Assembly (NCBI GenBank): GCA_934481445.1 | Contig: CAKSPC010000018.1 | Location: 1 to 46,595 of the forward strand | Direction: 5' to 3' | From: an uncultured Oscillospiraceae bacterium | Lineage (GTDB): Bacteria; Bacillota; Clostridia; Oscillospirales; Ruminococcaceae | DNA length: 46,595 bases | Shown: piece by piece, positions 9,140-24,948 of the stretch | How the letters are laid out: every line of letters starts with the position of its first letter | How positions within the stretch are numbered: the stretch's first letter is position 1 | The notes under the pieces: model-generated | Told to the model about the DNA's origin: nothing | The model's database searches: none | What the model saw: the letters and a program-made list of their open reading frames with translations, nothing else | Made by a program: the position numbers and the translations under genes

Positions 9140-10264
9140 TCAAACTATTGCGCCCTTATTAATAAATATAGGATAATCCACCGATCCTGTAATTGTACGG
9201 TTCTTCGTAAGCGTAACATCCTTATCCGTGATTGCATTGATGAACGACGCCTTCTCCTCGATAACGGTATTCTGGAGCAGAATGCTATTCTTAACAATTG
9301 CGCCCTTACCCACCTTAACGCCGCGGAACAGCACGCAATTCTCAACAGTGCCCTCGATTATGCAGCCGTCTGCAATAAGCGAGCCCTTGACAACGCAGTC
9401 AATGCCGTACTTCGCAGGCGCAACATCGCGGACCTTTGTATAGATAGGTGTATCCAGCGCGAATACCTCGTGGCGGATATCGCGGTTCATAATGTCCATC
9501 GTAGCCTTGTAATAGGTCTTGAGGGAATCGATTATCTCGAAATATCCATCGTACTTGTAGCCCATTACCTTGTATTCATGCAGCTTGTGCTGGAGAATGT
9601 CCGTTTCAAAGCTATACTGCGCGCGGCACTCGCTCTCGCGGATGATATCCTCTAAGAAGCGGCGCTTCATAACATAGATATTCAGCGCAACGTTCATCTC
9701 GCCGCTCATGTCGGGGTGAGAGAGAACATCGTAAACCGTATTGTCGTCGTTTACGCAGAGGATAGTCTGGTGCATCGCACGCTCTGCGGGATATACTGTC
9801 CTGCCGTATACGCAGGTGATATCAGCGCCGTTTTCTGCGTGGAAATCTATAACGGGACGGAGATCCATGTTCGCAACAAAGTTGCTGTCGGACATGATAA
9901 CATACTCCGCGTTGCTCTCGCGGATGAACTCAGCTGCGCCCGAAAGAGCCTCAAGTCTGCCGCGGTATATTCCAGCGCCCTCTCTGCCGTAGGGCGTGAG
10001 GATATGCAGACCGCCGGTCTTTCTTGCAAGATCCCACTCGCTGCCCATGCCGAGGTGGTTCATCAGGGAGTAGTAATTCTGCTTGGTTATAATGCCCACC
10101 TGTGTAATTCCCGAGTTGACCATGCTGGAAAGCGGGAAATCCACCAGACGGTACTTGCTTCCGAACGGAACGCTCGCCATAGCTCTTGCCTTTGTCAGCT
10201 CGGGAAGGTTCTGTTCATGCATATTAGCAAAAATCAGTCCTAAAACGTTAGCCATACTTGCCAT
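9140..10264 (-). CDS. glgD: Glucose-1-phosphate adenylyltransferase, GlgD-type regulatory subunit
   Basis: 374 residues; ATG at 10264 behind AAAGGA. The nucleotidyltransferase fold is clear (KARAMASVPFGSKYRLVDFPLS, and a C-terminal left-handed beta-helix with hexapeptide turns such as GCIIEGTVENCVLFRGVKVGKGAIV). It lacks the GGxGxRLxxLT nucleotide loop found in the neighbouring GlgC, having NVLGLIFANMHEQNLPELTK instead. That is typical of GlgD, the partner that modulates or stabilises GlgC in Firmicutes ADP-glucose synthesis. It is last in the glgB-glgC-glgD operon, 22 bases after glgC. Confidence 0.95.
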   Translation of the reverse strand: MASMANVLGLIFANMHEQNLPELTKARAMASVPFGSKYRLVDFPLSSMVNSGITQVGIITKQNYYSLMNHLGMGSEWDLARKTGGLHILTPYGREGAGIYRGRLEALSGAAEFIRESNAEYVIMSDSNFVANMDLRPVIDFHAENGADITCVYGRTVYPAERAMHQTILCVNDDNTVYDVLSHPDMSGEMNVALNIYVMKRRFLEDIIRESECRAQYSFETDILQHKLHEYKVMGYKYDGYFEIIDSLKTYYKATMDIMNRDIRHEVFALDTPIYTKVRDVAPAKYGIDCVVKGSLIADGCIIEGTVENCVLFRGVKVGKGAIVKNSILLQNTVIEEKASFINAITDKDVTLTKNRTITGSVDYPIFINKGAIV

Positions 10265-10286
10265 ATCAAAAACATCCTTTCCTGTC

Positions 10287-11492
10287 TTATATATCTTTGG
10301 AGATCATAGCCTTGGGGGGAGCGATAGCCTTGTCGGATACGTTAACGTGGTGACCTATTACCGCAACGCCCCAGCTCGACTTGTCCTCGACAAGCTCGGG
10401 ACGCTCACCGATGTGCGCGCCCTCGCCGATGACGCAGTCCTCGCCCACGATGGCGTATTCGATAACGGCGCCCTTCTTGATAACGGTGTTAGGCATGATG
10501 ATACTGTCGCGAACTATCGCGCCCTCTTCAACGGTAACGCCCGCGAAGAGCACGGAGAAGTCGATCATGCCGTTGATCTCGCAGCCCTCTGCAACCATGG
10601 AGTTTTCGATCTGGCTGTTGGGACCCGCATAGTGCGGCGGCATAACTGGGTTGCGGGAGTAAATCTTCCAGCTGTCGTCCAGCAGGTCGAGGGGAACGTT
10701 CGGGTCAAGAACGTCCATATTAGCTTCCCACAGGGAGTCGATGGTTCCGACATCCTTCCAGTAGCCGTCGAAGTGATATGCCATCATCTTCTGCTTGTCT
10801 GCCAGCATTGCGGGGATAATATTCTTACCGAAATCCTTTGTGGCGGTTTCGTCGTTTTCGTTGTCGATGAGGTACTTGCGCAGCTTGCTCCATGTGAATA
10901 CATAGATACCCATGGAAGCGAGGTTGCTCTTCGGCTCCTTGGGCTTCTCGGCGAATTCATAGATCTCGCCGTCCTCGTTCGCGCTCATGATGCCGAAGCG
11001 GGGAGCCTCCTCCCACGGAACTTCGAGAACCGCGATGGTAGCGTCGGCGTTGCTCTTCTTGTGGAATTCGACCATCTTGCCGTAGTTCATCTTGTAGATA
11101 TGGTCGCCGGAGAGAATCACAACGTACTCGGGGCTGTATCTGTCCACGAAGCCGATGTTCTGGTAGATGGCGTTTGCGGTGCCGGAGTACCAGCTCTTGC
11201 CCGCAGCGGTTTCGTACGGGGGAAGAACGTGCACGCCGCCGTGCGCTCTGTCAAGACCCCAGGGCTGGCCGTTGCCTATGTATTCGTTGAGCACCATGGG
11301 CTGATACTGTGTCAGCACGCCGACTGTGTCGATGCCGGAGTTAACGCAGTTGGAAAGCGGGAAGTCGATGATCCTGTATTTTCCTCCGTAAGGAACGGCA
11401 GGTTTTGCCATGTCCTGGGTAAGTGCGTAAAGACGGCTGCCCTGTCCGCCCGCAAGCAGCATGGCAACGCATTCCTTTTTGATATGGTTCAT
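10287..11492 (-). CDS. glgC: Glucose-1-phosphate adenylyltransferase, catalytic subunit
   Basis: 401 residues, the usual family length; ATG at 11492 after AGGAGG. It makes ADP-glucose from glucose-1-phosphate and ATP, the committed step of glycogen synthesis. Visible signatures: the N-terminal pyrophosphorylase loop [32 protein letters not shown], the sugar-binding region [12 protein letters not shown], the [10 protein letters not shown] motif, and a C-terminal beta-helix ([15 protein letters not shown]). It lies between glgB (58-base gap) and glgD, and probably forms a heterotetramer with GlgD. Confidence 0.97.
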
Positions 11493-11550
11493 ATTTATCC
11501 TCCTGTTCGGTTTTTCATGTTATATATCTTTCGGCGTCAGCCGCGATCTA

Positions 11551-13755
11551 TCATCTGTGCTTTTTCTTGTATTTGCGGGAGTGTCCGCCCTTTTTGCGGT
11601 TCTGCGGGTTCTGCGCGGGGTTATTTGCGGCGGGCGCCGCCTTTTCCTCTGCGGAAGCGTTCACAGCAGCGGTGGCTTCAGAACTTGTTACGGCAACAGC
11701 TTCCTGTGCCGCTTCTGCAACGGCTTCAGACACTGTTTCCGTGACAGCTTCAGCGACTTCTTCCATGGGAGAAGCAACCTCTGCGGGAACGGCTTCGGGA
11801 GCCGCTGTAACTTCCCCGGGAACTGCCGCAACAGCTTCCTCGGTCTGCTCGGAGGCGTTTTCGTCCAGCTTCTTTATCGTGAAATAAACCACAGCCATGG
11901 GCGGCAGGTCGAGAGAAATTCTGTACTGCTCGCCGTGCATTGGCTCTTTCTTCGCGCGGAGCGTTCCGTTGAAAATCCCCGTACCGCCGAACTTAACGTC
12001 GTCGGAGCTGAACACCTCGGTATAGTCGCCGTAATACGGCACGCCTATTTCGTAGACCTCATGCCTTACGGGCTGGAAGTTGCACACTACGATGACCTCG
12101 TCCTTGTTGCGGGCGATCCTTCTGAAAGCGATGACGCTGTTTGCGTTGTCCTCAGCGGATATCCAGTGGAAGCCTTCCCAGCTCGTATCGCATTCCCACA
12201 GCGCGGGGGTATCCTTGTAGAACCTGTTGAGCGCCTTTACATACTCATGCAGCTTATAGTGCGGCTCGAACTCCAGTACCTCCCAGTCAAGCTGGGTCTG
12301 GAAGTTCCATTCCTTGTACTGGGCAAACTCCTGTCCCATAAACATAAGTTTCTTTCCGGGGTGCGCCGCCATGTAGCCGAGGAATGTGCGCAGGCTGTTG
12401 AAGCGGTATTCCCGCGGCCCGCCCATCTTGTCGAGCATGGAGCACTTTCCGTACACCACCTCATCATGGCTGATGGGGAGGATATAGTTTTCGGAGAAAG
12501 CGTAGTAGAACGAGAATGTAACGAGGTTATGGTTATACGGGCGGCCGAGCGGATCCATGCTCATATAGCGGAGCATATCGTTCATCCAGCCCATGTTCCA
12601 TTTGAAGTTGAACCCGAGCCCACCGATATCCGCAGGCTTTGTTACCAGCGGCCAAGCAGTGGATTCCTCGGCGATCATCATTATGTTGGGGTGCTCCCTG
12701 AACAACGCGGAATTCAGCTTTTGTAGGAACGCCACGGCTTCGAGATTTTCCCTGCCGCCCTTGGAATTCGGGCGCCATTCGCCGTCGCGTCTGTCATAGT
12801 CGAGGTAAAGCATGGAAGCCACCGCGTCCACGCGCAGACCGTCGATATGGTATTTTTCTATCCAGTAGTTTGCGTTGGAAACGAGGAACGACTGCACCTC
12901 GGGCTTGCCCCAGTCGAAGATATTCGTGCCCCAGCTCTTGTGCTCGCGCTTGAGGGGGTCGTCGTATTCATAGCAGCTCTGCCCGTCGAATTCATACAGG
13001 CCTGCGGCGTCCTTCGGGAAGTGCGCGGGCACCCAGTCGAGGATAACGCCGATGCCCTCACTGTGGCACTTATCCACGAAAGCCATGAAATCGTGCGGCG
13101 TGCCAAAGCGGGATGTGGGGGCGTAGTAGCCTATCTGCTGATAGCCCCATGATCCGTCGAACGGGAACTCGCCTATCGGCATGAGTTCTATGTGGGTATA
13201 GCCCATGTCCTTGACATATGGCACAAGCTCATCGGCAAGGCGGCGGTAATCGTAGTAGTTTTCGCCGTCCATTTTCCATGAACCTGCGTTTACTTCATAG
13301 ATATTCGCGGGGCTGTCGTATATATTCTTTTCTGCGAGGGCTTTGCGGTAATTTTCGTCCGTCCAGTTGAAGCCCTCGATATCGTAGAACTTAGTCGCGG
13401 TGTTAGGCCGGGTTTCCATATGGAAGCCGTAGGGGTCAGCCTTGAGTTTGATGAGGCCGTCGGAGGTTTCAATGCTGTACTTATAGTTATCGTACTGCTT
13501 TATTCCCTCGATGAACACTTCCCAGATACCGCCGTCGCTGATTTTGTTCATGCAGCAGCGAGTTCTGTCCCAATGGTTGAAGTCGCCGATAACGCTTACG
13601 GAGCGGGCGTGTGGCGCCCAGACTCTGAAAACGGCGCCGTCCTGACCGCTGCGGTTATCCTTGTGGGAGCCGAAGAAGTCGAAGGCATGGGCGTTTTCCC
13701 CCTGATGGAACAGGTACAGAGGGACGTTGTATTGTTCGGGTATGGTTATAGGCAA
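11551..13755 (-). CDS. glgB: 1,4-alpha-glucan branching enzyme with an unusual Ala/Glu-rich, basic C-terminal tail
   Basis: I place the start at the TTG at 13755 (GGGAG 8 bases upstream); an in-frame ATG at 13800 lacks a ribosome site. The enzyme adds alpha-1,6 branches to glycogen. It has the N-terminal CBM48 (FRVWAPHARSVSVIGDFNHW) and the GH13 barrel with nucleophile Asp in GLRVDAVASMLY, acid/base Glu in MIAEESTAWP and the HD pair in PISHDEVVYGK. After the normal end (MAVVYFTIKKLDE) an extra segment of roughly 100 residues follows, almost entirely Ala, Glu, Val, Ser and Thr, closing with NRKKGGHSRKYKKKHR. That tail is not part of the usual GlgB and may tether the enzyme to glycogen, nucleic acid or another polyanion. 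First gene of the glycogen operon. Confidence 0.95.
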   Translation of the reverse strand: MPITIPEQYNVPLYLFHQGENAHAFDFFGSHKDNRSGQDGAVFRVWAPHARSVSVIGDFNHWDRTRCCMNKISDGGIWEVFIEGIKQYDNYKYSIETSDGLIKLKADPYGFHMETRPNTATKFYDIEGFNWTDENYRKALAEKNIYDSPANIYEVNAGSWKMDGENYYDYRRLADELVPYVKDMGYTHIELMPIGEFPFDGSWGYQQIGYYAPTSRFGTPHDFMAFVDKCHSEGIGVILDWVPAHFPKDAAGLYEFDGQSCYEYDDPLKREHKSWGTNIFDWGKPEVQSFLVSNANYWIEKYHIDGLRVDAVASMLYLDYDRRDGEWRPNSKGGRENLEAVAFLQKLNSALFREHPNIMMIAEESTAWPLVTKPADIGGLGFNFKWNMGWMNDMLRYMSMDPLGRPYNHNLVTFSFYYAFSENYILPISHDEVVYGKCSMLDKMGGPREYRFNSLRTFLGYMAAHPGKKLMFMGQEFAQYKEWNFQTQLDWEVLEFEPHYKLHEYVKALNRFYKDTPALWECDTSWEGFHWISAEDNANSVIAFRRIARNKDEVIVVCNFQPVRHEVYEIGVPYYGDYTEVFSSDDVKFGGTGIFNGTLRAKKEPMHGEQYRISLDLPPMAVVYFTIKKLDENASEQTEEAVAAVPGEVTAAPEAVPAEVASPMEEVAEAVTETVSEAVAEAAQEAVAVTSSEATAAVNASAEEKAAPAANNPAQNPQNRKKGGHSRKYKKKHR

Positions 13756-13826
13756 GAGTATCACTCCCTGTTTTTCTAACAAAATGACCAAAAACCGCAT
13801 ATGGTTTCAGCATTTCTTTATATAAT

Positions 13827-13855
13827 ATAATACCACAGCCGCCCGATTTTTTCAA
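13827..13855 (-). promoter_or_regulatory. Promoter of the glgBCD operon
   Basis: Minus strand TTGAAA (13855-13850), 17 bases, TATTAT (13832-13827). Start of transcription near 13820 gives a leader of about 65 bases to the TTG start codon. Confidence 0.75.
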
Positions 13856-13859
13856 TAGT

Positions 13860-14430
13860 TTTGTTAATATTTCATGCTAATAGCTATTTTTTTGCATTTG
13901 CTTTTGTGCATTTTGCGCATAAATTTTCAACAGGCGTTAAGTCAAATAATTATGAGGGTAAATTTTAGGTTAAGTGGGAGAGGAGGGTGGGCAAATTGCC
14001 AAGTCAGGTGCAATACTGAGAAGATAAAAATTTGAGAGGAGAGAGAAACCCAGGGCATTTTCCGTAACGAGAGTTAATACGGCGAATAACATTTTGAGGA
14101 TCATCCTCGGATGCCTTCAGGAAATCAGTACCAGAAGAAAAGCAGCAAATTGACTCCGCTGCTTTTCACAGTATATCTTGCAGCTCGTCGGAGCGCTCTC
14201 AGGTGTTGCCCTGTTTTGCGGCATTTTTAGCTTTGGTTCGTTTTTCGGGTTTGTTCGCGTTTCGCGGCAATTACATTTCACACAAAAGTTTGTATGAAGT
14301 TTACTTTTTATGTTGCACCTGACATTAATATACCGATCACCTTGACCGCATGTATTATGCGCCTTAAAGGCAAAATGTAATACGAACCTTTCAATACGCT
14401 ACGCGGAATTTTAACATCCTGCCGCGCAAC
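13860..14430. other. Non-coding gap between glgB promoter and pckG terminator
   Basis: About 570 bases with no credible gene on either strand. It contains the dispersed repeat described separately at 14266-14384; otherwise I see only AT-rich sequence and no clear hairpin with a T tract. Confidence 0.5.
14266..14384 (+). repeat. Dispersed repeat B followed by the end module of repeat A
   Basis: 14266-14332 (GGCAATTACATTTCACAC ... GACATTAATATA) matches 25049-25116 with scattered mismatches. 14341-14384 (CTTGACCGCATGTATTATG ... CAAAATGTAATACG) is a diverged copy of the module that ends repeats A1-A3. So the two repeat types occur side by side at two places in the window. Confidence 0.65.
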
Positions 14431-14461
14431 AAAAAGGGGGCAGCCGAAAGGATGCCCCCTT
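14431..14461 (-). terminator. Terminator of pckG
   Basis: Stem AAGGGGGCA / TGCCCCCTT (14434-14442 with 14453-14461); on the minus strand it ends in TTTTTG. Confidence 0.85.
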
Positions 14462-14480
14462 AAATTATGCCGTCAGCAAA

Positions 14481-16313
14481 TTACTTGTTGAGGTTTGCTT
14501 CGATCTTATCGAGCTGTGCGTACAGAGCCTCGGGAATGTGTGCGCCGCCCTTTGCAAGGTCAGCATAGTACTCACGCATACCTGCGATCTCCTTCTTCCA
14601 CAGATCCTTATCAACTGCCAGCAGCTTAGCCTCAACCTCGGGTGTAACTTCATCCTCGATACCCTTGAGGTTGATGTCGCCCTTCTTAGGCAGGTAGCCG
14701 ATTGCAGTTTCTTCAGCGTCGATCTTGCCTTCGCAGCGCTTGATGATCCAGTCAAGAACACGCATGTTGTCGCCGAAGCCGGGCCACATGAAGTTGCCGT
14801 TCTCGTCCTGCTTGAACCAGTTAACGTTGAAGATCTTAGGAGCCTTGTCGCCAAGCTTCTCGCCCATCTCCAGCCAGTGTGCCCAGTAATCGCCTACGTT
14901 ATAGCCGATGAAGGGCTTCATAGCCATAGGATCGTGACGCAGAACGCCTACAGCACCTGTTGCAGCAGCAGTTGTTTCAGAGGAAACAGCAGAACCGATG
15001 TATGTGCCGTGTGTCCAGTCGAAGGACTGATATACCAGAGGAGTGGTGGATGCACGTCTGCCGCCGAAGATGATTGCGGATACAGGAACACCCTTCGGGT
15101 TGTTGAACTCAGGGCTCAGGCAGGGGCAGTTAACAGCAGGAGCTGTAAATCTGGAGTTCGGGTGAGCCAGCTTCTGGGGCTTGCCGTCGGCAGCGATAAC
15201 GGAAGTGTACTCTACGCCGTTTACCTTTGCGCCCTTCCACTCTGTTGCGTCAACAGGAGGATTCTTGTCAAGACCTTCCCACCAAACGGTATTGTCTGCA
15301 TTGTTCAGAGCAACGTTTGTGAAGATAGCGTTCTTCTTGGTGGAAGCAAGTGCGTTGTAGTTGGACTTTGCGTTTGTACCGGGAGCAACACCGAAGAAGC
15401 CGTTCTCGGGGTTGATAGCATACAGTCTGCCGTCCTCGCCGGGCTTCATCCATGCGATATCATCACCAACGGTGAATACTTCGTAGCCTGCTTCCTTGTA
15501 AGCAGCGGGAGGAATAAGCATTGCAAGGTTGGTCTTGCCGCAGGCGGAGGGGAATGCAGCGGTGATATACTTGATATCGCCGTCGGGCTTCTTAACGCCG
15601 AGGATAAGCATATGCTCAGCCATCCAGCCCTCGTTCTTGCCCTGGTAGGAAGCGATACGCAGTGCGAAGCACTTCTTGCCCAGCAGAACGTTTCCGCCGT
15701 ATGCAGAGTTGATGGACCAGATAGTGTTGTCCTGCGGGAACTGAACGATGTATCTCTTTTCGGGATCAACGTCAGCCTTGGAATGCAGACCGCGAACGAA
15801 GTCGTTGGAAACATCGCCGAGGTTCTCAAAAGCCTGAGCGCCCATTCTGGTCATGATGTTCATGTTAAGAACAACATAGATGGAGTCGGTAACCTCAACG
15901 CCTACCTTAGCGAGGTGGGAACCGATGGGACCCATGGAGTAGGGGATAACGTACATTGTTCTGCCCTTCATTACTCCGTCATAGAGCTTTGTGAGCTTTG
16001 CATACATCTCCTTGGGGTCGCACCAGTTGTTGGTGGGGCCTGCTTCTTCCTTGGTGGGAGTGCAGATGAAAGTTCTGTCCTCAACACGTGCAACGTCGTT
16101 GGGGAGAGTTCTGTGGTACAGACAGCCGGGAAGCTTCTCGGGGTTGAGCTTGTACATCTTGTCCCTGTTGCCCTCGGGAAGTGCGCAAACTTCCTCTGTA
16201 AGAGCGTCGAGCTGCTCCTTGGAGCCGTCGATCCATACTACCTTATCGGGCTTGGTGAGAGCGACCATCTCATCGACCCACTTTAACACGTTAGGGTTCT
16301 TTGTAAGTGCCAT
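14481..16313 (-). CDS. pckG: Phosphoenolpyruvate carboxykinase (GTP)
   Basis: 610 residues, the length of the GTP-dependent family and longer than the ATP-dependent one. ATG at 16313 after AAGGAGAT. It interconverts oxaloacetate + GTP and phosphoenolpyruvate + CO2 + GDP; in fermenting gut anaerobes it often runs toward oxaloacetate. Key parts: substrate loop HSKADVDPEKRYIVQFP, the P-loop AAFPSACGKTNLAML (residues about 252-265) with the reactive Cys258 of the GTP family, the metal-binding VGDDIAWM (about 282-288), and the CPCLSPEFNNPKGVPVSAI region. It has its own promoter and terminator. A LysR gene lies upstream on the same strand and might regulate it, but no direct evidence is visible. 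Confidence 0.97.
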   Translation of the reverse strand: MALTKNPNVLKWVDEMVALTKPDKVVWIDGSKEQLDALTEEVCALPEGNRDKMYKLNPEKLPGCLYHRTLPNDVARVEDRTFICTPTKEEAGPTNNWCDPKEMYAKLTKLYDGVMKGRTMYVIPYSMGPIGSHLAKVGVEVTDSIYVVLNMNIMTRMGAQAFENLGDVSNDFVRGLHSKADVDPEKRYIVQFPQDNTIWSINSAYGGNVLLGKKCFALRIASYQGKNEGWMAEHMLILGVKKPDGDIKYITAAFPSACGKTNLAMLIPPAAYKEAGYEVFTVGDDIAWMKPGEDGRLYAINPENGFFGVAPGTNAKSNYNALASTKKNAIFTNVALNNADNTVWWEGLDKNPPVDATEWKGAKVNGVEYTSVIAADGKPQKLAHPNSRFTAPAVNCPCLSPEFNNPKGVPVSAIIFGGRRASTTPLVYQSFDWTHGTYIGSAVSSETTAAATGAVGVLRHDPMAMKPFIGYNVGDYWAHWLEMGEKLGDKAPKIFNVNWFKQDENGNFMWPGFGDNMRVLDWIIKRCEGKIDAEETAIGYLPKKGDINLKGIEDEVTPEVEAKLLAVDKDLWKKEIAGMREYYADLAKGGAHIPEALYAQLDKIEANLNK

Positions 16314-16389
16314 GATTGTATCTCCTTCGTAGCTTTATTTTCGAGAGCCTTTTTTAGCACTCTGCTTCAAAAATCTCTCCACATATACC

Positions 16390-16418
16390 ATTATACACGA
16401 TGTTTTGCAATAAGTCAA
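16390..16418 (-). promoter_or_regulatory. Promoter of pckG
   Basis: Minus strand TTGACT (16418-16413), 17 bases, TATAAT (16395-16390). Confidence 0.8.
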
Positions 16419-16549
16419 GAATTTTTATTCACATTTTAGGGGGTTAGGAAGCCATAACGGCGTTTTTTGCGGAAATAGTGATATATAAAAAATACATACC
16501 CATCATATAAACATTGTTATTATTTTATCAAATACTGCAAAATGATAAG

Positions 16550-16574
16550 CGGAGCGCCGCAGCGTCCCGCTCCG
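16550..16574 (-). terminator. Possible weak terminator of the LysR gene
   Basis: CGGAGCG / CGCTCCG (16550-16556 with 16568-16574), loop of 11 bases, followed on the minus strand by TTATCATTTT. The loop is long and the T tract interrupted. Confidence 0.4.
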
Positions 16575-16577
16575 ATG

Positions 16578-17489
16578 TCAATTTATCCCCAGATAATTAC
16601 GCACCTCGGCAAGGTAAGTTTCGCCGATATCGCTGAGGACGGAATGTTTTTTTGTGATATAACCCACCTCCATAATGTCGTCGGTATCATCTCCGGCGAG
16701 AGGTACAACGCTGTAGTCGCTGCCGTTTAATTCCTCGCAAATAATGCCGGAGCAGAGGGTATATCCGTTCAGCCCGACCATGAGGTTGAGCATGGTGGCG
16801 CGGTCGTTGACCTTGATGGTGCGGGGATAGTCGTAGTCGGCGAGAATTTCCTCGGCGAGGAAGAGGGAGGAGCCGCTGCCCTGCTCGAATGAAAGGCAGG
16901 GGAATTCGCGGAGCTGTTCCATGCAGATGGATTTTTCCCGAGCCAGCGGGTGTCCGCGCCAGAGATAAGCGAAAGCGCGGCAGTCGATGAGCCGCGTGAA
17001 TTCAACGCTGCGCTCGGCGAGAAGCTTCATTATTATACGGCGGTTAAATCCACTCAGAAAAAGTATGCCGATATCGCTGCGGAGCGAGCCGACGTCATCG
17101 ATGACGTCCATGGTGCGGGTTTCGCGGATGGCAAAGTCGAAGTCGAGGGTGTCGTACTTTTTCACGGTTTCGACGAACGCCTTTATCGCAAAGGAATAGT
17201 GCTGTGTGGACACGGCGAATTTTCTGCGGAGCCCGCCACCGCTGTATTTTTCCTCGAGGAGTTCGTACTGCTGGCATACCTGCCGCGCTCCGGCGAGGAA
17301 ATCCGCGCCCTCCTTTGTAGCGACGACGCCGCGGCTGGTGCGGATGAAGATTTGTATGCCGAGCTCGGCTTCGAGCTCCCTTATGGCGCTGGTCAGCGTC
17401 GGCTGGGAGATATAGAGCCGTTCTGCTGCTTTGTTCATGGAGCCGGTTTCCGCAACGGCAAGAGCGTATTTCATTTGTAATAATGTCAT
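16578..17489 (-). CDS. LysR-family transcriptional regulator
   Basis: 303 residues, the family's usual length. The N-terminal winged helix is clear (LLQMKYALAVAETGSMNKAAERLYISQPTL split over residues 3-32, then TSAIRELEAELGIQIFIR). The rest is the two-lobed effector-binding domain (FSISTQHY-like start at about residue 92, typical FPCLSFEQG near 208). Effector unknown. The gene is alone on its strand between 800 bases of non-coding DNA and pckG. The ATG has no strong ribosome site. Confidence 0.9.
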   Translation of the reverse strand: MTLLQMKYALAVAETGSMNKAAERLYISQPTLTSAIRELEAELGIQIFIRTSRGVVATKEGADFLAGARQVCQQYELLEEKYSGGGLRRKFAVSTQHYSFAIKAFVETVKKYDTLDFDFAIRETRTMDVIDDVGSLRSDIGILFLSGFNRRIIMKLLAERSVEFTRLIDCRAFAYLWRGHPLAREKSICMEQLREFPCLSFEQGSGSSLFLAEEILADYDYPRTIKVNDRATMLNLMVGLNGYTLCSGIICEELNGSDYSVVPLAGDDTDDIMEVGYITKKHSVLSDIGETYLAEVRNYLGIN

Positions 17490-18934: not shown

Positions 18935-18963
18935 TTGAAAAAATATACAAGTGAGATTATAAT
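18935..18963 (+). promoter_or_regulatory. Promoter of the fatty-acid/polyketide-like operon
   Basis: TTGAAA (18935-18940), 17 bases, TATAAT (18958-18963). A short palindrome GTCCC-TTTT-GGGAC (18901-18914) lies just upstream and could bind a regulator, but it is not the FapR consensus. Transcription would start near 18970, about 24 bases before the first start codon. Confidence 0.8.
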
Positions 18964-18993
18964 TATAAATACAGCGTGAAGGAGCGTGATAGC

Positions 18994-19668
18994 TTGAGTA
19001 AGAAAAATCCGCTGAAACAGTCGTTATGGGGCAGATTTTATCAGATGCTCATAACATGGACAGTGTATTTCCTGTTCAGACCTAAGATAATTTACGAGGA
19101 CAAGGCGCTCAAAAAGTCCTTAAAGGGCAGACCCGCCGTTTTCGTTTTCAACCACACGCACCATTTCGACGGAGCATTCGTCGGCGCGGTGCTGCATTCA
19201 TACAAGCCGTGGGTGCTTACAAAAAGCACATGGTATGAAAAAAAGGTCGTCGGCACCATGATAAGCTGGTGCAGGTGCATTCCCATCAACCTTGATGAAG
19301 CCGACGGCGCATGGTACAACATGGCGGAGGAGATACTCTCCCGCGGCTCGATGGCTATCTTCCCCGAGGGCGGAATTGCCCGCGAGGGTCATATGAACAC
19401 ATTCCGACCCGGCGCGGCGCTTCTTTCCGCGAAAATGGGCGTTCCGGTGGTGCCCTGCGCGATATACGGAACATATTCCCCCGTTTTCGGCATGAGGCAG
19501 AAGCTGCTGGTGGGCAGGCCCATCGAAAGCAACTGCCCCGCGGATATGCGACACAGCAAGTATTCCCGCGTGCTTATGACCGCCGCCGAGGAGGACGTTA
19601 AGCGCCTTTATTCGCAGCTTGAGCAGACCTACGGTGACTGCGGCACCTATCCCGCACAGAACAAGTAA
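18994..19668 (+). CDS. PlsC-type acyltransferase
   Basis: I choose the TTG at 18994 because AAGGAG is 9 bases upstream; an upstream in-frame GTG at 18976 overlaps that site. The 224-residue protein has the HX4D catalytic motif NHTHHFDG (His54, Asp59), the substrate-binding FPEGG, and a hydrophobic N-terminal segment (LITWTVYFLF), so it acts at the membrane. This family moves acyl chains from acyl-ACP or acyl-CoA to an alcohol, usually lysophosphatidate. As first gene of an operon that also makes an ACP and chain-building enzymes, it may transfer the operon's own product onto a lipid, as acyltransferases do in aryl-polyene clusters. Its real acceptor is unknown. Confidence 0.88.
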   Translation: MSKKNPLKQSLWGRFYQMLITWTVYFLFRPKIIYEDKALKKSLKGRPAVFVFNHTHHFDGAFVGAVLHSYKPWVLTKSTWYEKKVVGTMISWCRCIPINLDEADGAWYNMAEEILSRGSMAIFPEGGIAREGHMNTFRPGAALLSAKMGVPVVPCAIYGTYSPVFGMRQKLLVGRPIESNCPADMRHSKYSRVLMTAAEEDVKRLYSQLEQTYGDCGTYPAQNK

Positions 19669-19722
19669 GACACGGCAGAAATGCCGAAAAATAAAACAAT
19701 ATTATTAAGTGAGGTACATATT

Positions 19723-19968
19723 ATGAACACAGAGATCGCAGAAAAGATCAAGGGCATGCTGGTAGAGAACCTGAGAATCCCCGCAGACGAGCTGGAATAC
19801 ACATCCGAGCTGTTCGGCGACGACATCGGTCTTGATTCCATCGACTCCATTGAGATCATCGCAGGCATCGACAACCTGTTCGGCGTTCAGATGACAGGCG
19901 CCGCAAGAGAGAACTTCCAGACCATCGAAACTCTCACAAAGTACGTTGAAGAGCACATGGGTGAATGA
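19723..19968 (+). CDS. Acyl carrier protein of the KS-CLF operon
   Basis: 81 residues; ATG at 19723 after GTGAGG. Acidic four-helix carrier with the phosphopantetheine site GLDSIDSIEI (Ser39). It differs from housekeeping AcpP (usual DSLDTVEL) and shares the 'DSID/SIE' style of dedicated carriers. The next gene starts inside its stop codon (ATGA), so it is co-translated with the ketosynthase. The Sfp-type enzyme encoded four genes further on probably activates it. Confidence 0.93.
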   Translation: MNTEIAEKIKGMLVENLRIPADELEYTSELFGDDIGLDSIDSIEIIAGIDNLFGVQMTGAARENFQTIETLTKYVEEHMGE

Positions 19969-22313
19969 TAATGGAAAATAACAGACGTGTAGTTGTCACG
20001 GGTTTGGGTCTTGTCTGCGCCGTGGGCAGCAATGTCGAGGAGTGCTGGAACAACGCCTCCAACGGCGTGACGGGCATCAGAAAGGTGACTTCCGTAAACA
20101 CAGACGAGTGCTATGCGAACATCGGCGCGGAAGTTCCGATAAAGTCCGCAGACCTCTCCCCCGAAAACTACGACCGTTCCTCCCTGCTGTGCATAAAGGC
20201 GGCTGACGAGGCTCTGAAGGATTCGGGATATAATGTCGGCGAGGCTTCCGACAGGATAGGCGTTATCGTCGGCAACTGCGTCGGCGGCGCCGCAAGTATT
20301 GACAAATATTTCACCGACGAGATAAAGAACGGCGGCGCGGACAAGGACGATATCCTTAAAATGCCCGCTTCCGCCATCGCAAACAACGTTGCCCGCCACT
20401 TCGGCCTTAACGGCACCACCGCAAACATCGTAAACGCCTGCGCGGCAGGTACGATAAGCCTTTCCTATGCCTGCGACCTTATCCGCGCGGGCAAGGCGGA
20501 CGCTTTCGTTGCGGGCGGCTCGGACAGCTTCTCCTCCCTTGCTTTTGCGGGATTCCATGCGCTGCACGCGCTGGACGCGCATCCCTGCTCCCCCTTTAAC
20601 AGAAGCAGCGGCATAACCCTCGGCGAGGGCGCAGGCATTCTCATCATCGAGGACTATGAGCACGCAAAGGCGCGCGGCGCGAAGATCTACTGCGAGATAC
20701 TCGGCTCGGGCGTAAGTTCCGACGCGCACCACATCACCGCTCCCCGTCCCGACGGACAGGGACAGATGTCCGCGATACGCCGCGCCATCGCAAATTCGGG
20801 TCTTGACGCGAACGACATCGACTACATCAACGCCCACGGCACAGGCACCGCGAAGAACGACGAGGCGGAGTTCCTCTCCCTCCACACCATCTTCGACGGC
20901 AGCAGCAATCTTTCCGTAAGCTCCACAAAATCCATGACGGGTCACTGCCTCGGCGCGGCGGGCTCCATCGAAGCCGTTCTCACCGTAAAGGCAGTGTGCG
21001 AGGACACCGTTCCCCCCACCATCGGATACACCGACGAGGACCTTGAAAAGCTCACGGAAAAGGCAGGGGACATCGACTTTGTTCCCAACAACAAGCACGA
21101 AAAGAACGTAAGCTATGCGGCTTCCAACTCCTTTGCATTCGGCGGCAACAACGCCAGCATAGTTTTCAGCAAGAACAGCCACGATATACCCGACCGCACC
21201 AACAAGCAGAAGATCTACGTTACCGGTATCGGCAAGGTAGTCGGCGCAACCGCAGACGAAAAGGGCGGCCTGCGTGCGGAGATAACTTCCGACGACTACA
21301 AGGCGCACGGAATAAAGATGGCGTTCTACCGCAAGCTTGACAGATTCTCGCAGCTCCAGCTCATCAGCGGCATGAGAGCGCTCTCCGACGCGGGCATAAC
21401 CATCGACGAGAGCAACGAGAATGACATCGGTATCGTTGTCGGCACATCTGATGGTCCCATGACCGAGATAGTCGGCTTCCAGAAGAACGTTATTGAGAAC
21501 GGCACGGCTTCGGGCAGCGCGTTCTCCTTCCCGAACACCGTTTACAATGCGGCGGGCGGATATTTCAGCATTTTTGCGGGAATAAAGGGTTATAATGTCA
21601 CCGACGCCAACGGCATTCAGGCGGGACTTCAGAGCGTATGCTATGCGGCGGACGTCCTCCGCAACGGCGACGAGAGCATCATGGTAGCTTCCGGCACGGA
21701 CGAAAACACCGACACCACCGAATACCTTTATAATAAGCTCGGCCTGCTGAGCGACGCGAAGCCCTACTCCCTCAATAAGGACGGCTTCACACTCGGCGAG
21801 GGCTCCGTTTCCCTTATCCTCGAAACAGAGAACAGCGCGGCAAAGCGCGGCGCGAAGAAGTATGCAGAGCTCGCGGGCTGTGCAAACGCGCACAAGTCCG
21901 TTGATTTCGGCAAGGTTACAGGCTCGGATGAGGCACTGAAAAAGGCTGTCCTCGAGGCCTGCGAAGCGGCGGGAATTTCCGCAAAGGACATAGACGCTGT
22001 CTGCGGCTTTGCAGACGGACACAAGGCGGTCGACGCGCTTGAGCTTTCCGTTTACCGCGACGTATTCGGCGAGATACCCGTGTTCTGCGTTAAGGACACC
22101 ATGGGCGAAGCCCGCGCGGCGGCAAGCACGATGCAGGCGGCGTATGCGGCGGAAATTCTTTCGGGCGGAACGGACGCAGTCCTCCCCGCGCATAAGATAA
22201 CCGCAGGCGGCGTTGAAAACATCACCGTGGATACAAAGGGATACAAGTATATCCTCGCGGCGGCATTCGGCGCAGGCGGCTCCTATTCGGCGGCCGTACT
22301 CAGGAAAGTTTGA
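19965..22313 (+). CDS. Fused ketosynthase plus catalytically dead ketosynthase (chain-length-factor-like)
   Basis: 782 residues, twice the size of FabF. Residues about 7-405 are a full FabF-type ketosynthase with active Cys159 (NACAAGT), His291 (HGTGT) and His327 (TKSMTGHCLGAAG) and the ending NSFAFGGNNAS. Residues about 415-782 are a second ketosynthase fold in which the active site reads TDANGIQAG (no Cys; by hand alignment Ile551), the first His region reads GFADGHKAV (His replaced by Phe) and the second KDTMGEARAA (His replaced by Glu). This is how chain-length factors differ from their partner ketosynthases in type II polyketide and aryl-polyene systems, where the two are separate proteins. 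A role in building a chain of fixed length is inferred. An alternative start is the ATG at 19971. Confidence 0.9.
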   Translation: MIMENNRRVVVTGLGLVCAVGSNVEECWNNASNGVTGIRKVTSVNTDECYANIGAEVPIKSADLSPENYDRSSLLCIKAADEALKDSGYNVGEASDRIGVIVGNCVGGAASIDKYFTDEIKNGGADKDDILKMPASAIANNVARHFGLNGTTANIVNACAAGTISLSYACDLIRAGKADAFVAGGSDSFSSLAFAGFHALHALDAHPCSPFNRSSGITLGEGAGILIIEDYEHAKARGAKIYCEILGSGVSSDAHHITAPRPDGQGQMSAIRRAIANSGLDANDIDYINAHGTGTAKNDEAEFLSLHTIFDGSSNLSVSSTKSMTGHCLGAAGSIEAVLTVKAVCEDTVPPTIGYTDEDLEKLTEKAGDIDFVPNNKHEKNVSYAASNSFAFGGNNASIVFSKNSHDIPDRTNKQKIYVTGIGKVVGATADEKGGLRAEITSDDYKAHGIKMAFYRKLDRFSQLQLISGMRALSDAGITIDESNENDIGIVVGTSDGPMTEIVGFQKNVIENGTASGSAFSFPNTVYNAAGGYFSIFAGIKGYNVTDANGIQAGLQSVCYAADVLRNGDESIMVASGTDENTDTTEYLYNKLGLLSDAKPYSLNKDGFTLGEGSVSLILETENSAAKRGAKKYAELAGCANAHKSVDFGKVTGSDEALKKAVLEACEAAGISAKDIDAVCGFADGHKAVDALELSVYRDVFGEIPVFCVKDTMGEARAAASTMQAAYAAEILSGGTDAVLPAHKITAGGVENITVDTKGYKYILAAAFGAGGSYSAAVLRKV

Positions 22314-22371
22314 TTGATACATCGGGCGGGGAGAGCGATTTCTCCGCCCTTTCTCAAAACAGGAGGAAAAA

Positions 22372-23115
22372 TTGGATAACGAAACAAAAGTCGCGCTGGT
22401 AACGGGCGCTTCCCGGGGAATAGGCAGAGCCTGCGCGATGAAGCTGGCGGAATGCGGCTATGACATCGCGGTTAATTTCAACAGCAACGAAGCAAAGGCG
22501 CAGGAGGTCGTTTCCGCGATAGAAGCCCTCGGCAGACGCGCAATCGCCGTAAAGGCGGACACAGCAGACCTCAAGACGGTGCAGAATATGTTCCGCGAAG
22601 TGCACAAGGCTTTCGGAAGGCTGGATGTGCTGGTAAACAACGCGGGCGTTGTGGACGACGCATACCTGCTGATGATAAACGAGGATTCGCTTTCGAGAAG
22701 CCTTGACATCAACATCAAGGGTTACTTCCACTGCGCACAGCAGGCGGCTCTCAAGATGATGAGCAAGAAGCAGGGCAAGATAATCAACATATCTTCCGTA
22801 AGCTCCGTGCTTGCCGTGGAGGGACAGGGCGTGTATTCCGCAACAAAGGGTGCGGTGAACTCCATGACCGCCACCCTTGCAAAGGAGCTTGCTCCCCGCG
22901 GGATTACCGTCAACGCAGTAGCCCCGGGCTTCATCGAAACCGAAATGATAGACGCCATACCCGAGGATAAGAAAGAGGAGTACCTCAAGGCTGTGCCCAT
23001 GCACAAATTCGGCACCGCAGGGGACGTTGCGAACGTTGTCGCTTCGCTCTGCTCCGACGCATTCGCGTATATGACGGGACAGGTCATAGTTCTTGACGGA
23101 GGTCTGAGCCTGTGA
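22372..23115 (+). CDS. 3-ketoacyl-ACP reductase (FabG/SDR type)
   Basis: 247 residues, normal FabG length. Start is the TTG at 22372, 5 bases after AGGAGG. Motifs of the short-chain dehydrogenase fold: nucleotide loop TGASRGIGRA (11-20), NNAG (89-92), Ser in ISSVSSV (140-146), and catalytic YSATK (Tyr155, Lys159); C-terminal GFIETEM. It reduces the 3-keto group formed by the ketosynthase using NAD(P)H. A G+C-rich stem (22322-22349) sits in the 58-base gap after the ketosynthase gene and might tune expression. The stop codon overlaps the next start (TGATG). Confidence 0.93.
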   Translation: MDNETKVALVTGASRGIGRACAMKLAECGYDIAVNFNSNEAKAQEVVSAIEALGRRAIAVKADTADLKTVQNMFREVHKAFGRLDVLVNNAGVVDDAYLLMINEDSLSRSLDINIKGYFHCAQQAALKMMSKKQGKIINISSVSSVLAVEGQGVYSATKGAVNSMTATLAKELAPRGITVNAVAPGFIETEMIDAIPEDKKEEYLKAVPMHKFGTAGDVANVVASLCSDAFAYMTGQVIVLDGGLSL

Positions 23116-23561
23116 TGAATATTGTCGAAATAAACGAAAGAATAAAACAGCGCCCGCCCTTTCAGATGATAGAGCGCGTTGTTGAGCTGGAGCCTAACGT
23201 TTCCGCAAAGGGAATAAAGTGCGTTTCGGTGAACGAGCCGTATTTCATGGGGCACTTCCCCGACGCGCCGATAATGCCCGGCGTGCTTATCATCGAGAGC
23301 GCCGCACAGCTCTGCAGCCTTGTGATCGCTCCCGAAAACGCGGCTTCCGACGCGGACAAGCTGTATGTATTACTGAAAGTCAAGGACTTTAAGTTCCTCA
23401 AGCCCGTTATCCCTGGGGATAAGCTGGAGATAGAGGTTAAATGCACCCTCGCGAGCGCCGCGGCGTACGAATTTTCCGCGATCATCTCCGTGGACGGAAA
23501 AACAAGGGCGAAGGGCAGCATGCTCTTCACGGCGATAGATAAGAGCACAGTATATGAGTGA
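23115..23561 (+). CDS. 3-hydroxyacyl-ACP dehydratase (FabZ type)
   Basis: 148 residues, hotdog fold. ATG at 23115 overlaps the reductase stop. N-terminal RPPFQMIERVVEL and the active-site segment YFMGHFPDAPIMPGVLIIES with catalytic His47 are classic FabZ. It removes water from 3-hydroxyacyl-ACP to give the trans-2-enoyl form. No recognisable enoyl reductase (FabI/FabK/FabL/FabV) follows, so double bonds may be kept. Its end overlaps the Sfp gene by 8 bases. Confidence 0.93.
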   Translation: MNIVEINERIKQRPPFQMIERVVELEPNVSAKGIKCVSVNEPYFMGHFPDAPIMPGVLIIESAAQLCSLVIAPENAASDADKLYVLLKVKDFKFLKPVIPGDKLEIEVKCTLASAAAYEFSAIISVDGKTRAKGSMLFTAIDKSTVYE

Positions 23562-24210
23562 TATCAGGATAGATTTTTCCGCCTGCATAGTCACGGGCGG
23601 CGAGGGTCTGCGGGAACGGGTCGAATCCGCTTCGAAATGCTACGCCCCCGAAAGCGCATATTTTGACGAGCTTTTCGCAAAGAGCGGCGCGGCGTTTGAG
23701 GAGAGCGCCTGCGCGTTTCTGCTGCTGGACAGCATGGTGCAGTCCCGCAGGATAGACCGCAGCGCGGTGAAGCTTCTCCGCACGGAAAAGGGAAGACCCT
23801 ATGCCGAGGGAGCGGAGCTTGACATCAGCCTTTCCCACAGCGACGGCTGCGCATTCTGCGCGATAGCGACGGGCACGGGGGTTACAAAGGGCGCTGTCGG
23901 CGCGGACGTCCAGCGGGAACGGGATTATTCCAACGAAAAAATGTCAGAGCTCGCCATGGCGTTCATGACCGAGGAGGAGCTTGCGGCGTTCTATTATGCC
24001 GAGGACAAGCGCGGGGAATTTTTCACCGCATGGACCCGCCGCGAGGCGCACGCAAAGCGCATCGGCGAGGATATCCTCGACCACATCGGCGGCACGGATC
24101 TTTCCGGTGAGAATTTCCGCGAGGGCATTATAAACTGCTGCGGCGCGAAATATTATTATTGCATTGACACGGCGGCGGAGAAAACTGCCGCAGACGAGGA
24201 GAATATATGA
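23554..24210 (+). CDS. Sfp-type 4'-phosphopantetheinyl transferase
   Basis: 218 residues, the size of Sfp rather than AcpS. It transfers the phosphopantetheine arm from CoA to the Ser of a carrier protein. Visible: KGRPYAEGAELDISLSHSDG (substrate/CoA region), GADVQRERDY with the metal Asp, and FFTAWTRREAHAKRIGE, the variant of the W-x-x-KEA-x-x-K motif (Arg for Lys at the first position). Coupled by overlaps to both neighbours. Having a private transferase supports a specialised product separate from housekeeping fatty acid synthesis. Confidence 0.88.
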   Translation: MSDIRIDFSACIVTGGEGLRERVESASKCYAPESAYFDELFAKSGAAFEESACAFLLLDSMVQSRRIDRSAVKLLRTEKGRPYAEGAELDISLSHSDGCAFCAIATGTGVTKGAVGADVQRERDYSNEKMSELAMAFMTEEELAAFYYAEDKRGEFFTAWTRREAHAKRIGEDILDHIGGTDLSGENFREGIINCCGAKYYYCIDTAAEKTAADEENI

Positions 24211-24914
24211 AAGTTCTTGTTCTGAACGGAAGCCCCAAGGCTGACCGCAGCAACACGCTGAACATAACAAAGGCGTTCCTCAGGGGATTTCCCGAGAACA
24301 CCGAGGTGGAGTATGTAAACATCTACCGCAAGAATATCAAGCCCTGTGTAGGATGTTTTTCCTGCTGGAGCAAGACGCAGGGACACTGTGTTATACAGGA
24401 CGATATGCAGGAGATCTACGGGAAGATACAGGCTGCGGATATCATAATCGAGTCGTTCCCGCTGTATTTCTTCGGAATGCCGTCGCAGTTAAAGGCAATG
24501 ACGGATCGCTGCCTGCCGTTCATGCTTCCGTATATGGGCAATCTGGTGGAGGATAAGAACGCGTCGTTCCACGAGTTAAGGGACGAGAGTATGCATGAAA
24601 AGCGGCTGGTCGTTATCACTACCTGCGGCTATGTTGACGCAAAGCCGATGTATCCTGCGCTGCTGAAGGAGTATGATCTTATCTGCGGCGACGGGCATTA
24701 TACGGCGATATTGTGTCCCGAGGGCGAGCTTTTCATTGCGGAAAAGGCAAAGCGCCAGCGGGAGGGATACCTTGCAGATATAACGAAAGCGGGCACGGAG
24801 TTCGCGGAAAATCGCGCGTTGAGTGCGAAAACGATGGCAAGGATATCGAAGCCGATATTGTCGCCGAAGGGATTTGAAACGATCACTCTGGCGCATTGGG
24901 AGCATGGAATCTGA
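24207..24914 (+). CDS. Flavodoxin-fold NAD(P)H-dependent oxidoreductase
   Basis: 235 residues. The start MKVLVLNGSPKADRSNT is the FMN-binding loop of the flavodoxin_2/NADPH-dependent FMN reductase family; IIIESFPLYFFGMPSQLKAMTDR is the second typical FMN-contact region. Cys-rich PCVGCFSCWSKTQGHC (residues about 48-63) is frequent in this subgroup from anaerobes (iron-sulfur flavoprotein-like). It overlaps the Sfp gene by ATGA and closes the operon. It might reduce double bonds of the acyl chain or supply electrons, which would fill the missing reductase step; that is inference only. Confidence 0.85.
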   Translation: MKVLVLNGSPKADRSNTLNITKAFLRGFPENTEVEYVNIYRKNIKPCVGCFSCWSKTQGHCVIQDDMQEIYGKIQAADIIIESFPLYFFGMPSQLKAMTDRCLPFMLPYMGNLVEDKNASFHELRDESMHEKRLVVITTCGYVDAKPMYPALLKEYDLICGDGHYTAILCPEGELFIAEKAKRQREGYLADITKAGTEFAENRALSAKTMARISKPILSPKGFETITLAHWEHGI

Positions 24915-24917
24915 TGA

Positions 24918-24948
24918 AAAGTCCCCCGAGTTTCGGGGGACTTTTTCT
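24918..24948 (+). terminator. Terminator of the KS-CLF operon
   Basis: Perfect stem AAAGTCCCCCGA / TCGGGGGACTTT (24918-24929 with 24933-24944), 3-base loop, T tract; starts 4 bases after the last stop codon. Confidence 0.93.

Follow-up and report, generated by a model that had tools for sequence, protein, structure and literature searches.

What does a compact gene cluster make that joins an intact and an inactivated ketosynthase (KS) in one protein, and is it distinct from the ordinary fatty acid synthase (FAS)? The question is raised by a 46,595-nucleotide stretch of DNA from an uncultured Oscillospiraceae bacterium (assembly GCA_934481445.1, contig CAKSPC010000018.1; below, the window), in which seven co-directional genes (18935..24946, forward strand) encode a PlsC-like acyltransferase, an acyl carrier protein (ACP), a fused KS-KS protein, a ketoreductase (KR), a FabZ-type dehydratase (DH), an Sfp-type phosphopantetheinyl transferase (PPTase) and a flavoprotein. 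An initial annotation, made from the letters alone, had named these genes in this place, and the open reading frames (ORFs) and their Pfam families agree with it (Acyltransferase, PP-binding, two ketoacyl synthase modules, SDR/KR, FabA-like, ACPS and FMN_red). By its sequence the operon looks closest to bacterial polyene makers, and we lean towards reading it as a reducing type II polyketide synthase (PKS) whose single-chain KS and chain-length factor (CLF) makes a polyenoyl chain that is put on a lipid by PlsC.

Features of the fused protein

The fused gene (19965..22313, forward strand) encodes 782 amino acids, with KS1 at about residues 1-403 and KS2, the CLF-like half, at about 416-782, as delimited by Pfam, NCBIfam, alignment, model and trees. 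Of at least 7992 candidates scored in the homolog search, 4312 proteins passed E 0.001, and the best 120 of these (67-95% identical) were aligned with the window protein. Cys159, His291, Lys322 and His327 of KS1 were invariant (121/121), whereas the catalytic columns of KS2 hold Ile551 (a variable position), Phe682 (116/121) and Glu715 (120/121), the Cys and both His being lost; the initial annotation was thus right about both halves, including its description of an active KS fused to a dead, CLF-like one. Gln552, which adjoins the lost-Cys column, was found in 121/121. The Cys and both His were likewise absent from 18 of 18 fused KS2 halves from Clostridia, Priestia and Streptomyces (PfaC apart). 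Judged by these residues, the active KS and its catalytically dead partner are parts of a single polypeptide.

In KS2, conservation at 97% or more was seen at 80 of 185 positions of the N-terminal half and at 29 of 182 of the C-terminal half, which is eroded. ApeC is a single thiolase fold domain according to the accessible part of PMC8358021, and its decay runs in the same C-terminal direction as that of KS2, with the half absent in ApeC and eroded here.

Structure prediction and comparison with KS-CLF pairs, which the initial annotation had proposed, gave an AlphaFold model of the 782-residue protein with a pTM of 0.92, whose top Foldseek match, and the best over the whole length, was the PfaC KS-CLF didomain (PDB 6riw; TMq 0.79, rmsd 6.4, 19% identity). 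The ishigamide KS/CLF (PDB 6kxd) was among the structural matches, level with FabFs, and one set of structural alignment rows (VIA-align) spans model residues 4-406. The fused chain is predicted to fold as an intramolecular KS-CLF pseudo-dimer.

An antisense ORF of 811 codons (19887-22322, reverse strand) mirrors nearly the entire KS-KS gene, with related antisense ORFs in two relatives (L009, L012); it is most likely an artefact of codon composition.

Phylogenetic position

Two maximum-likelihood trees were computed under fixed LG models, one of 70 domains (402 columns) and one of 50 KS (403 columns) without any KS2, ApeC or the L028 piece; support is given as aLRT/UFBoot. Genomes and loci are designated by G and L numbers. 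The 18 fused proteins included were those of the window, L001-L005, L008, L010, L011, L034, L036, L068-L070, Lachnospira eligens, Priestia and two Streptomyces, together with PfaC, taken as a 2457-residue ORF in G461 that was assigned by its position after a PfaA match. Fused loci outside the trees were L006 and L009 (runs of N, frame breaks), L007, L012, L030-L033, L035, L037-L039 and L077-L108.

In both trees the fused KS1 halves of Clostridia, Priestia and Streptomyces formed one clade with Escherichia coli ApeO (100/100); E. coli FabF and FabB and the FabFs of G001, G002, G004, G007, G188 and G300 lay outside it. All 18 fused KS1 have a loop of 23-24 residues after the GFxxL motif; its length is 24 in ApeO and 25 in PfaC, as against 29-31 in 30 of 30 other KS (including L028, a 271-residue piece). 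One of the chains of the solved KS pair 9s5h (B and C), which were among the best solved-sequence matches of both halves, was added to one tree, where 9s5h_B was the sister of the KS1/ApeO clade (88.8/95). By tree and loop, the KS half is to be placed with the polyene-type KS represented by ApeO and not with FabF, which bears out the relation to aryl-polyene (APE) systems drawn initially. ApeC formed a long branch and the position of KS2 relative to active KS was poorly supported at depth, yet KS2, which has no Cys, fell outside FabF; clustering within active FabF with an intact Cys had been named beforehand as refuting the CLF interpretation. One locus, L013, has two separate KS genes.

Distribution and conservation of gene order

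Near G002, the fused gene was matched over its full length in 35 of 100 genomes and in pieces in four more; these 39 fall within the first 43 of the list, which by list order are taken to be the closest to G002, and the remaining 57 gave no match. At 1e-40 the KS2 profile had matches in the family sample (10 of 297), the order sample (4 of 295) and the class sample of G007 (4 of 291), with the centre genomes counted in. From these counts the operon looks like a trait of one clade that is patchy outside it.

Gene order was scored in 37 of the 39 matching genomes, the two others being G032 and G033, where the fused gene is in pieces; the loci (32 fetched, plus L001, L002, L004, L007 and L010) were picked for holding the fused gene. 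Judged by place and length, some contigs bear two locus numbers (L009/L106, L012/L107, L001/L037). The seven-gene order, which the initial annotation had suggested looking for in other genomes, was complete in 32 of the 37 (29 of the 32 fetched, and L002, L004 and L010), L106 being scored complete although PlsC and KS-KS each match in two pieces. The others are cut at contig ends (L102, L107, L108, L001) or have no Sfp match (L007), as is also the case for Sfp in L003, outside this set. The arrangement differs from the seven-gene order in L005, L008 and L011.

Among 1296 matching records of a plasmid protein search, of which 60 were listed and four examined in detail, one-piece matches listed were those of L. 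eligens (residues 1-715, 54.9% identity), Priestia megaterium (8-714, 35%) and Streptomyces (from residue 4, 5 or 9 to 715, 33-35%). Phage-record matches came from 29 records, 5 of them listed. The L. eligens operon holds ACP, KS-KS, KR, FabZ, ACP S-malonyltransferase, AccD, a flavodoxin-family protein and PlsX, with neither PlsC nor a PPTase among its annotated genes; PlsX is the last gene there and in L005. The cluster on Priestia plasmid pBM500 encodes a PPTase, a malonyltransferase (MAT), FabG, ACP, FabZ, a GcvT-like protein and the fused KS, and two Streptomyces plasmid clusters (L046, L047) carry separate KS genes alongside the fused one. The latter two also hold a KASIII-like gene, ester cyclases and sugar genes. 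In three Clostridia genomes (L068, at 9905-11376, L069 and L070), genes for ACP, KS-KS, KR and flavoprotein stand after an asparaginase-like gene and a gene of about 210 codons that had no Pfam match (the L068 copies were searched).

Relation to the fatty acid synthase

The initial interpretation would also have failed had the operon been the only FAS of the organism; for the relatives this is rejected on their other FAS genes. A separate KS gene (412-431 residues, PF00109) besides the fused one was clear in seven of nine relatives' genomes; G003 gave a weak 41-position PF00109 match in a 434-residue frame and no clear separate KS gene, and in G005 none was found with PF00109. Homologs of FabH, FabD, FabG, FabF, a FabZ-like gene and AccD/AccA are clustered in G004 and G008; G002 has the same cluster without a FabH match, and G001 and G007 have parts of it. 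No enoyl reductase was identified in the FAS stretches of G002, G004 and G008. The operon would thus add a second type II acyl assembly line to a normal FAS, the latter being seen in relatives and inferred for the source genome.

Gene content and organization

A sigma-70-type promoter-like site (TTGAAA-17-TATAAT, 18935..18963, forward strand) is a consensus match with 11 of 12 positions and a 17-nt spacer, and a terminator-like intrinsic hairpin (24916..24946, forward strand) has 14 pairs, 7 of them GC. Both lie where the initial annotation had a single promoter and a single terminator bounding the operon, but such sites were not clearly commoner than in shuffled sequence: a 7.2-kb scan gave 3 promoter-like sites (shuffle mean 5.1) and 11 terminator-like sites (shuffle mean 8.6, sd 3.6). 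The conserved gene order is the better evidence that the operon is one unit. Starts overlap stops at four junctions, as had been noted (ACP/KS, KR/DH, DH/Sfp, Sfp/flavoprotein); among 32 relative loci, an in-frame start candidate at or before the upstream stop was present in 18 of 31 at KR/DH and 23 of 30 at DH/Sfp.

All genes are on the forward strand. The PlsC-like acyltransferase (18994..19668; Pfam Acyltransferase 6.8e-18) carries the motifs HTHHFD and FPEGG; its ORF opens at GTG 18976, the likely start, read from the sequence, being TTG 18994 after AAGGAG, and its top NCBIfam match was acyl-ACP--phospholipid O-acyltransferase, with a score far under the cut-off. The ACP (19723..19968; Pfam PP-binding 9.8e-10) has a GLDS site; its ORF opens at 19681 and probably starts, on the same kind of reading, at ATG 19723, the L001 homolog opening with the identical MNTEIAEK. 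A G+C-rich inverted repeat followed by TTTCTC was seen by eye at 22316-22360, between the KS-KS and KR genes and outside the sites listed by the scan; the length of this gap differs among relatives. The KR (22372..23115) is a FabG-like SDR by Pfam (TIGR01830 1.9e-77, 260 bits, below the cut-off of 298), the DH (23112..23561) is of FabZ type (Pfam; NF000582 129 bits, over the cut-off of 113) and the Sfp-type PPTase (23554..24210) matched PF01648 (7.1e-07, 29.7 bits, cut-off 25).

The last gene (24207..24914) encodes a flavodoxin-fold protein (Pfam FMN_red) resembling quinone and azo reductases, which were the fold matches of a weak model (pLDDT 71.0, 11 sequences). Its C47, C50, C53 and C61, kept in 11/11, fit CX2CX2CX4-7C, which we take to be the motif of Isf-like iron-sulfur flavoproteins, and by this motif it is a putative member of that group. 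In L077-L108 the flavoprotein forms two groups, about 84-89% and about 59-71% identical to that of the window, between which the gene order does not differ; one copy at a contig end has 90%.

Among the seven genes, Pfam found no MAT, AMP-ligase or known enoyl reductase, in line with the initial annotation, and neither an aryl-starter activation gene nor an ApeR-like second KS gene was found by Pfam and NCBIfam; a CylF-like aminomethyltransferase was not found among their ORFs and Pfam matches. The term 'self-contained' first applied to the operon is too strong, because malonyl-ACP must come from elsewhere, unlike in two Lachnospiraceae metagenome-assembled genomes and L. eligens, where FabD and carboxylase genes lie inside the operon. 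Upstream (9140-17489, reverse strand) are two GlgC/GlgD-like nucleotidyl transferases, a branching-enzyme-like protein, a GTP-type phosphoenolpyruvate carboxykinase and a LysR regulator, with no evident link to the operon.

Proposed function and alternatives

In the favoured reading, Sfp would convert the ACP to holo-ACP, and malonyl-ACP would be supplied by the housekeeping FabD. The starter would probably be a short acyl-ACP from FAS, or acetyl formed by decarboxylation. KS1 would condense, the KR reduce and FabZ dehydrate, so that the chain would grow as a conjugated polyene without a dedicated enoyl reductase, with the tunnel of KS2 setting its length; PlsC would transfer it from the ACP to glycerophosphate or a lysophospholipid, and the flavoprotein would probably be a redox partner acting on chain or product. 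We infer both the polyene, from the lack of a dedicated enoyl reductase together with the ApeO-like KS, and the lipid attachment.

Several observations weigh against this assignment. An enoyl reductase could act in trans. The whole protein exceeds the cut-off of the FabF-type NCBIfam subfamily NF005589 (473.6 against 387 bits) and lies just below that of fabF TIGR03150 (491.9 against 493.75), each score summed over two stretches; the best solved sequences for KS1, next after 9s5h_B, are FabFs, and KS2 alone finds E. coli FabF best (1.9e-29, against 1e-13 for the actinorhodin CLF). The fused KS2 clade is weak in the 70-domain tree (32.5/76). In both trees E. coli is the sole source of APE sequences, and neither contains the ishigamide KS (Iga11). 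PlsC was not found in L005, L. eligens and L068-L070, so lipid attachment is not general among the distant versions; the L068-L070 operons also have no DH. Among the annotated genes of the APE locus of E. coli CFT073 there is no counterpart of the flavoprotein.

The most serious alternative, although we think it rather less probable, is a synthase dedicated to a special fatty acid whose chain is reduced in part or completely, with a housekeeping enoyl reductase or the flavoprotein removing double bonds and PlsC or PlsX delivering the chain to the membrane. The family scores leaning to FabF point that way, as do the PlsX genes of the L. eligens and L005 operons, the flavoprotein, which none of the completely seen Clostridia arrangements lacks (even those without PlsC, DH or Sfp), and the adjoining FAS genes in G161, G188 and G300 (FabH, a FabK-like ORF named by sequence reading, FabD, FabG and FabF). 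It is opposed by the ApeO-like tree position and loop of KS1, by a flavoprotein that, in a model with a pLDDT of only 71, folds like quinone and azo reductases, and by the annotated genes of the Priestia and Streptomyces clusters, among which no flavoprotein was found.

It is also possible, though unlikely in our estimate and compatible with the polyenoyl reading, that KS2 is still an enzyme and not merely a length factor, Gln552 decarboxylating malonyl-ACP to prime the synthase. In KSQ and CLF proteins a Gln can take part in decarboxylation; that of KS2 is invariant in the alignment, its xQ(A/S)G context is kept in L005, L008, L011, L. eligens and L068-L070, and the operon has no starter enzyme of its own, but the residue aligns one position past the Cys column and is missing from the fused KS2 of Priestia and Streptomyces.

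Improbable is a non-polyene type II PKS in which KS2 acts as a partner of the cyclisation type, giving a short ring or an aromatic compound, as in cispentacin: for it speak sub-threshold NCBIfam matches to AmcF (287.5 bits, cut-off 325), AmcE (63, cut-off 140) and AmcB (36.6, cut-off 80) and the description, in the available portion of PMC10698177, of AmcG as a partner of AmcF without functional motifs, but the FabF and FabZ scores exceed those of AmcF and AmcE, KR and FabZ indicate reducing cycles, and an AmcH-like adenylating enzyme is absent among the seven genes.

Going further than the polyenoyl assignment, one may conjecture, though with considerable doubt, an undescribed class of membrane lipids in anaerobic Clostridia, namely polyenoyl phospholipids made by a single-chain KS-CLF and redox-cycled by a dedicated iron-sulfur flavoprotein, near-universal in one uncultured clade and with a related pathway in cultured L. 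eligens. The best-known polyene lipids are the APEs of Gram-negative bacteria and the pigment of streptococci (accessible parts of PMC8358021 and PMC6985545, and in part general background). A compact seven-gene version across a Clostridia clade, with a relative in the L. eligens type strain ATCC 27750, makes the acyl product directly testable, and a one-chain KS-CLF would suit studies of chain-length control as a single-protein tool.

Comparison with known systems

KS and CLF, described in the initial annotation as normally two proteins, are separate in the ishigamide system, a highly reducing type II PKS (Iga11-Iga12; PMC8358021, as far as accessible). Their fusion is less exceptional than that annotation implied and not unique to this operon, being already known from polyunsaturated fatty acid (PUFA) synthases and found in the one-piece homologs of L. 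eligens, Priestia and Streptomyces. The term 'KS-CLF didomain' occurs in listed PUFA synthase papers. The PfaC didomain likewise has KS and CLF in one chain, but it sits within a megasynthase and has both His in its CLF, whereas the protein described here is encoded in a seven-gene operon and has lost both. The celluxanthene/YAS pigment pathway was rejected as an identity because it uses a type I iterative PKS (PMC12144888, accessible part).

The Priestia pBM500 cluster, with its fused KS, ACP, KR, FabZ, MAT, PPTase and a GcvT-like gene like CylF, resembles streptococcal cyl-type (granadaene) operons in gene content, a CylF-like aminomethyltransferase being universally conserved in cyl operons in the text available from PMC6985545, and by this analogy the Priestia cluster may be called cyl-like. 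The seven genes of the window differ in having no GcvT-like gene, MAT or exporter, with PlsC and the flavoprotein in their place.

With the APE cluster of E. coli CFT073 (ApeO-ApeC) the operon shares ACP, KR, DH, KS and CLF and a lysophospholipid acyltransferase, whose gene adjoins the CLF gene in E. coli and so offers a precedent for PlsC here, and KS1 groups with ApeO. It differs in the fusion of KS and CLF, in the added flavoprotein and in being without an acyl-CoA synthetase, second KS, methyltransferase, glycosyltransferase and MMPL transporter. No description of a compact PlsC/flavoprotein KS-CLF operon in Clostridia was found in searches of the open-access literature.

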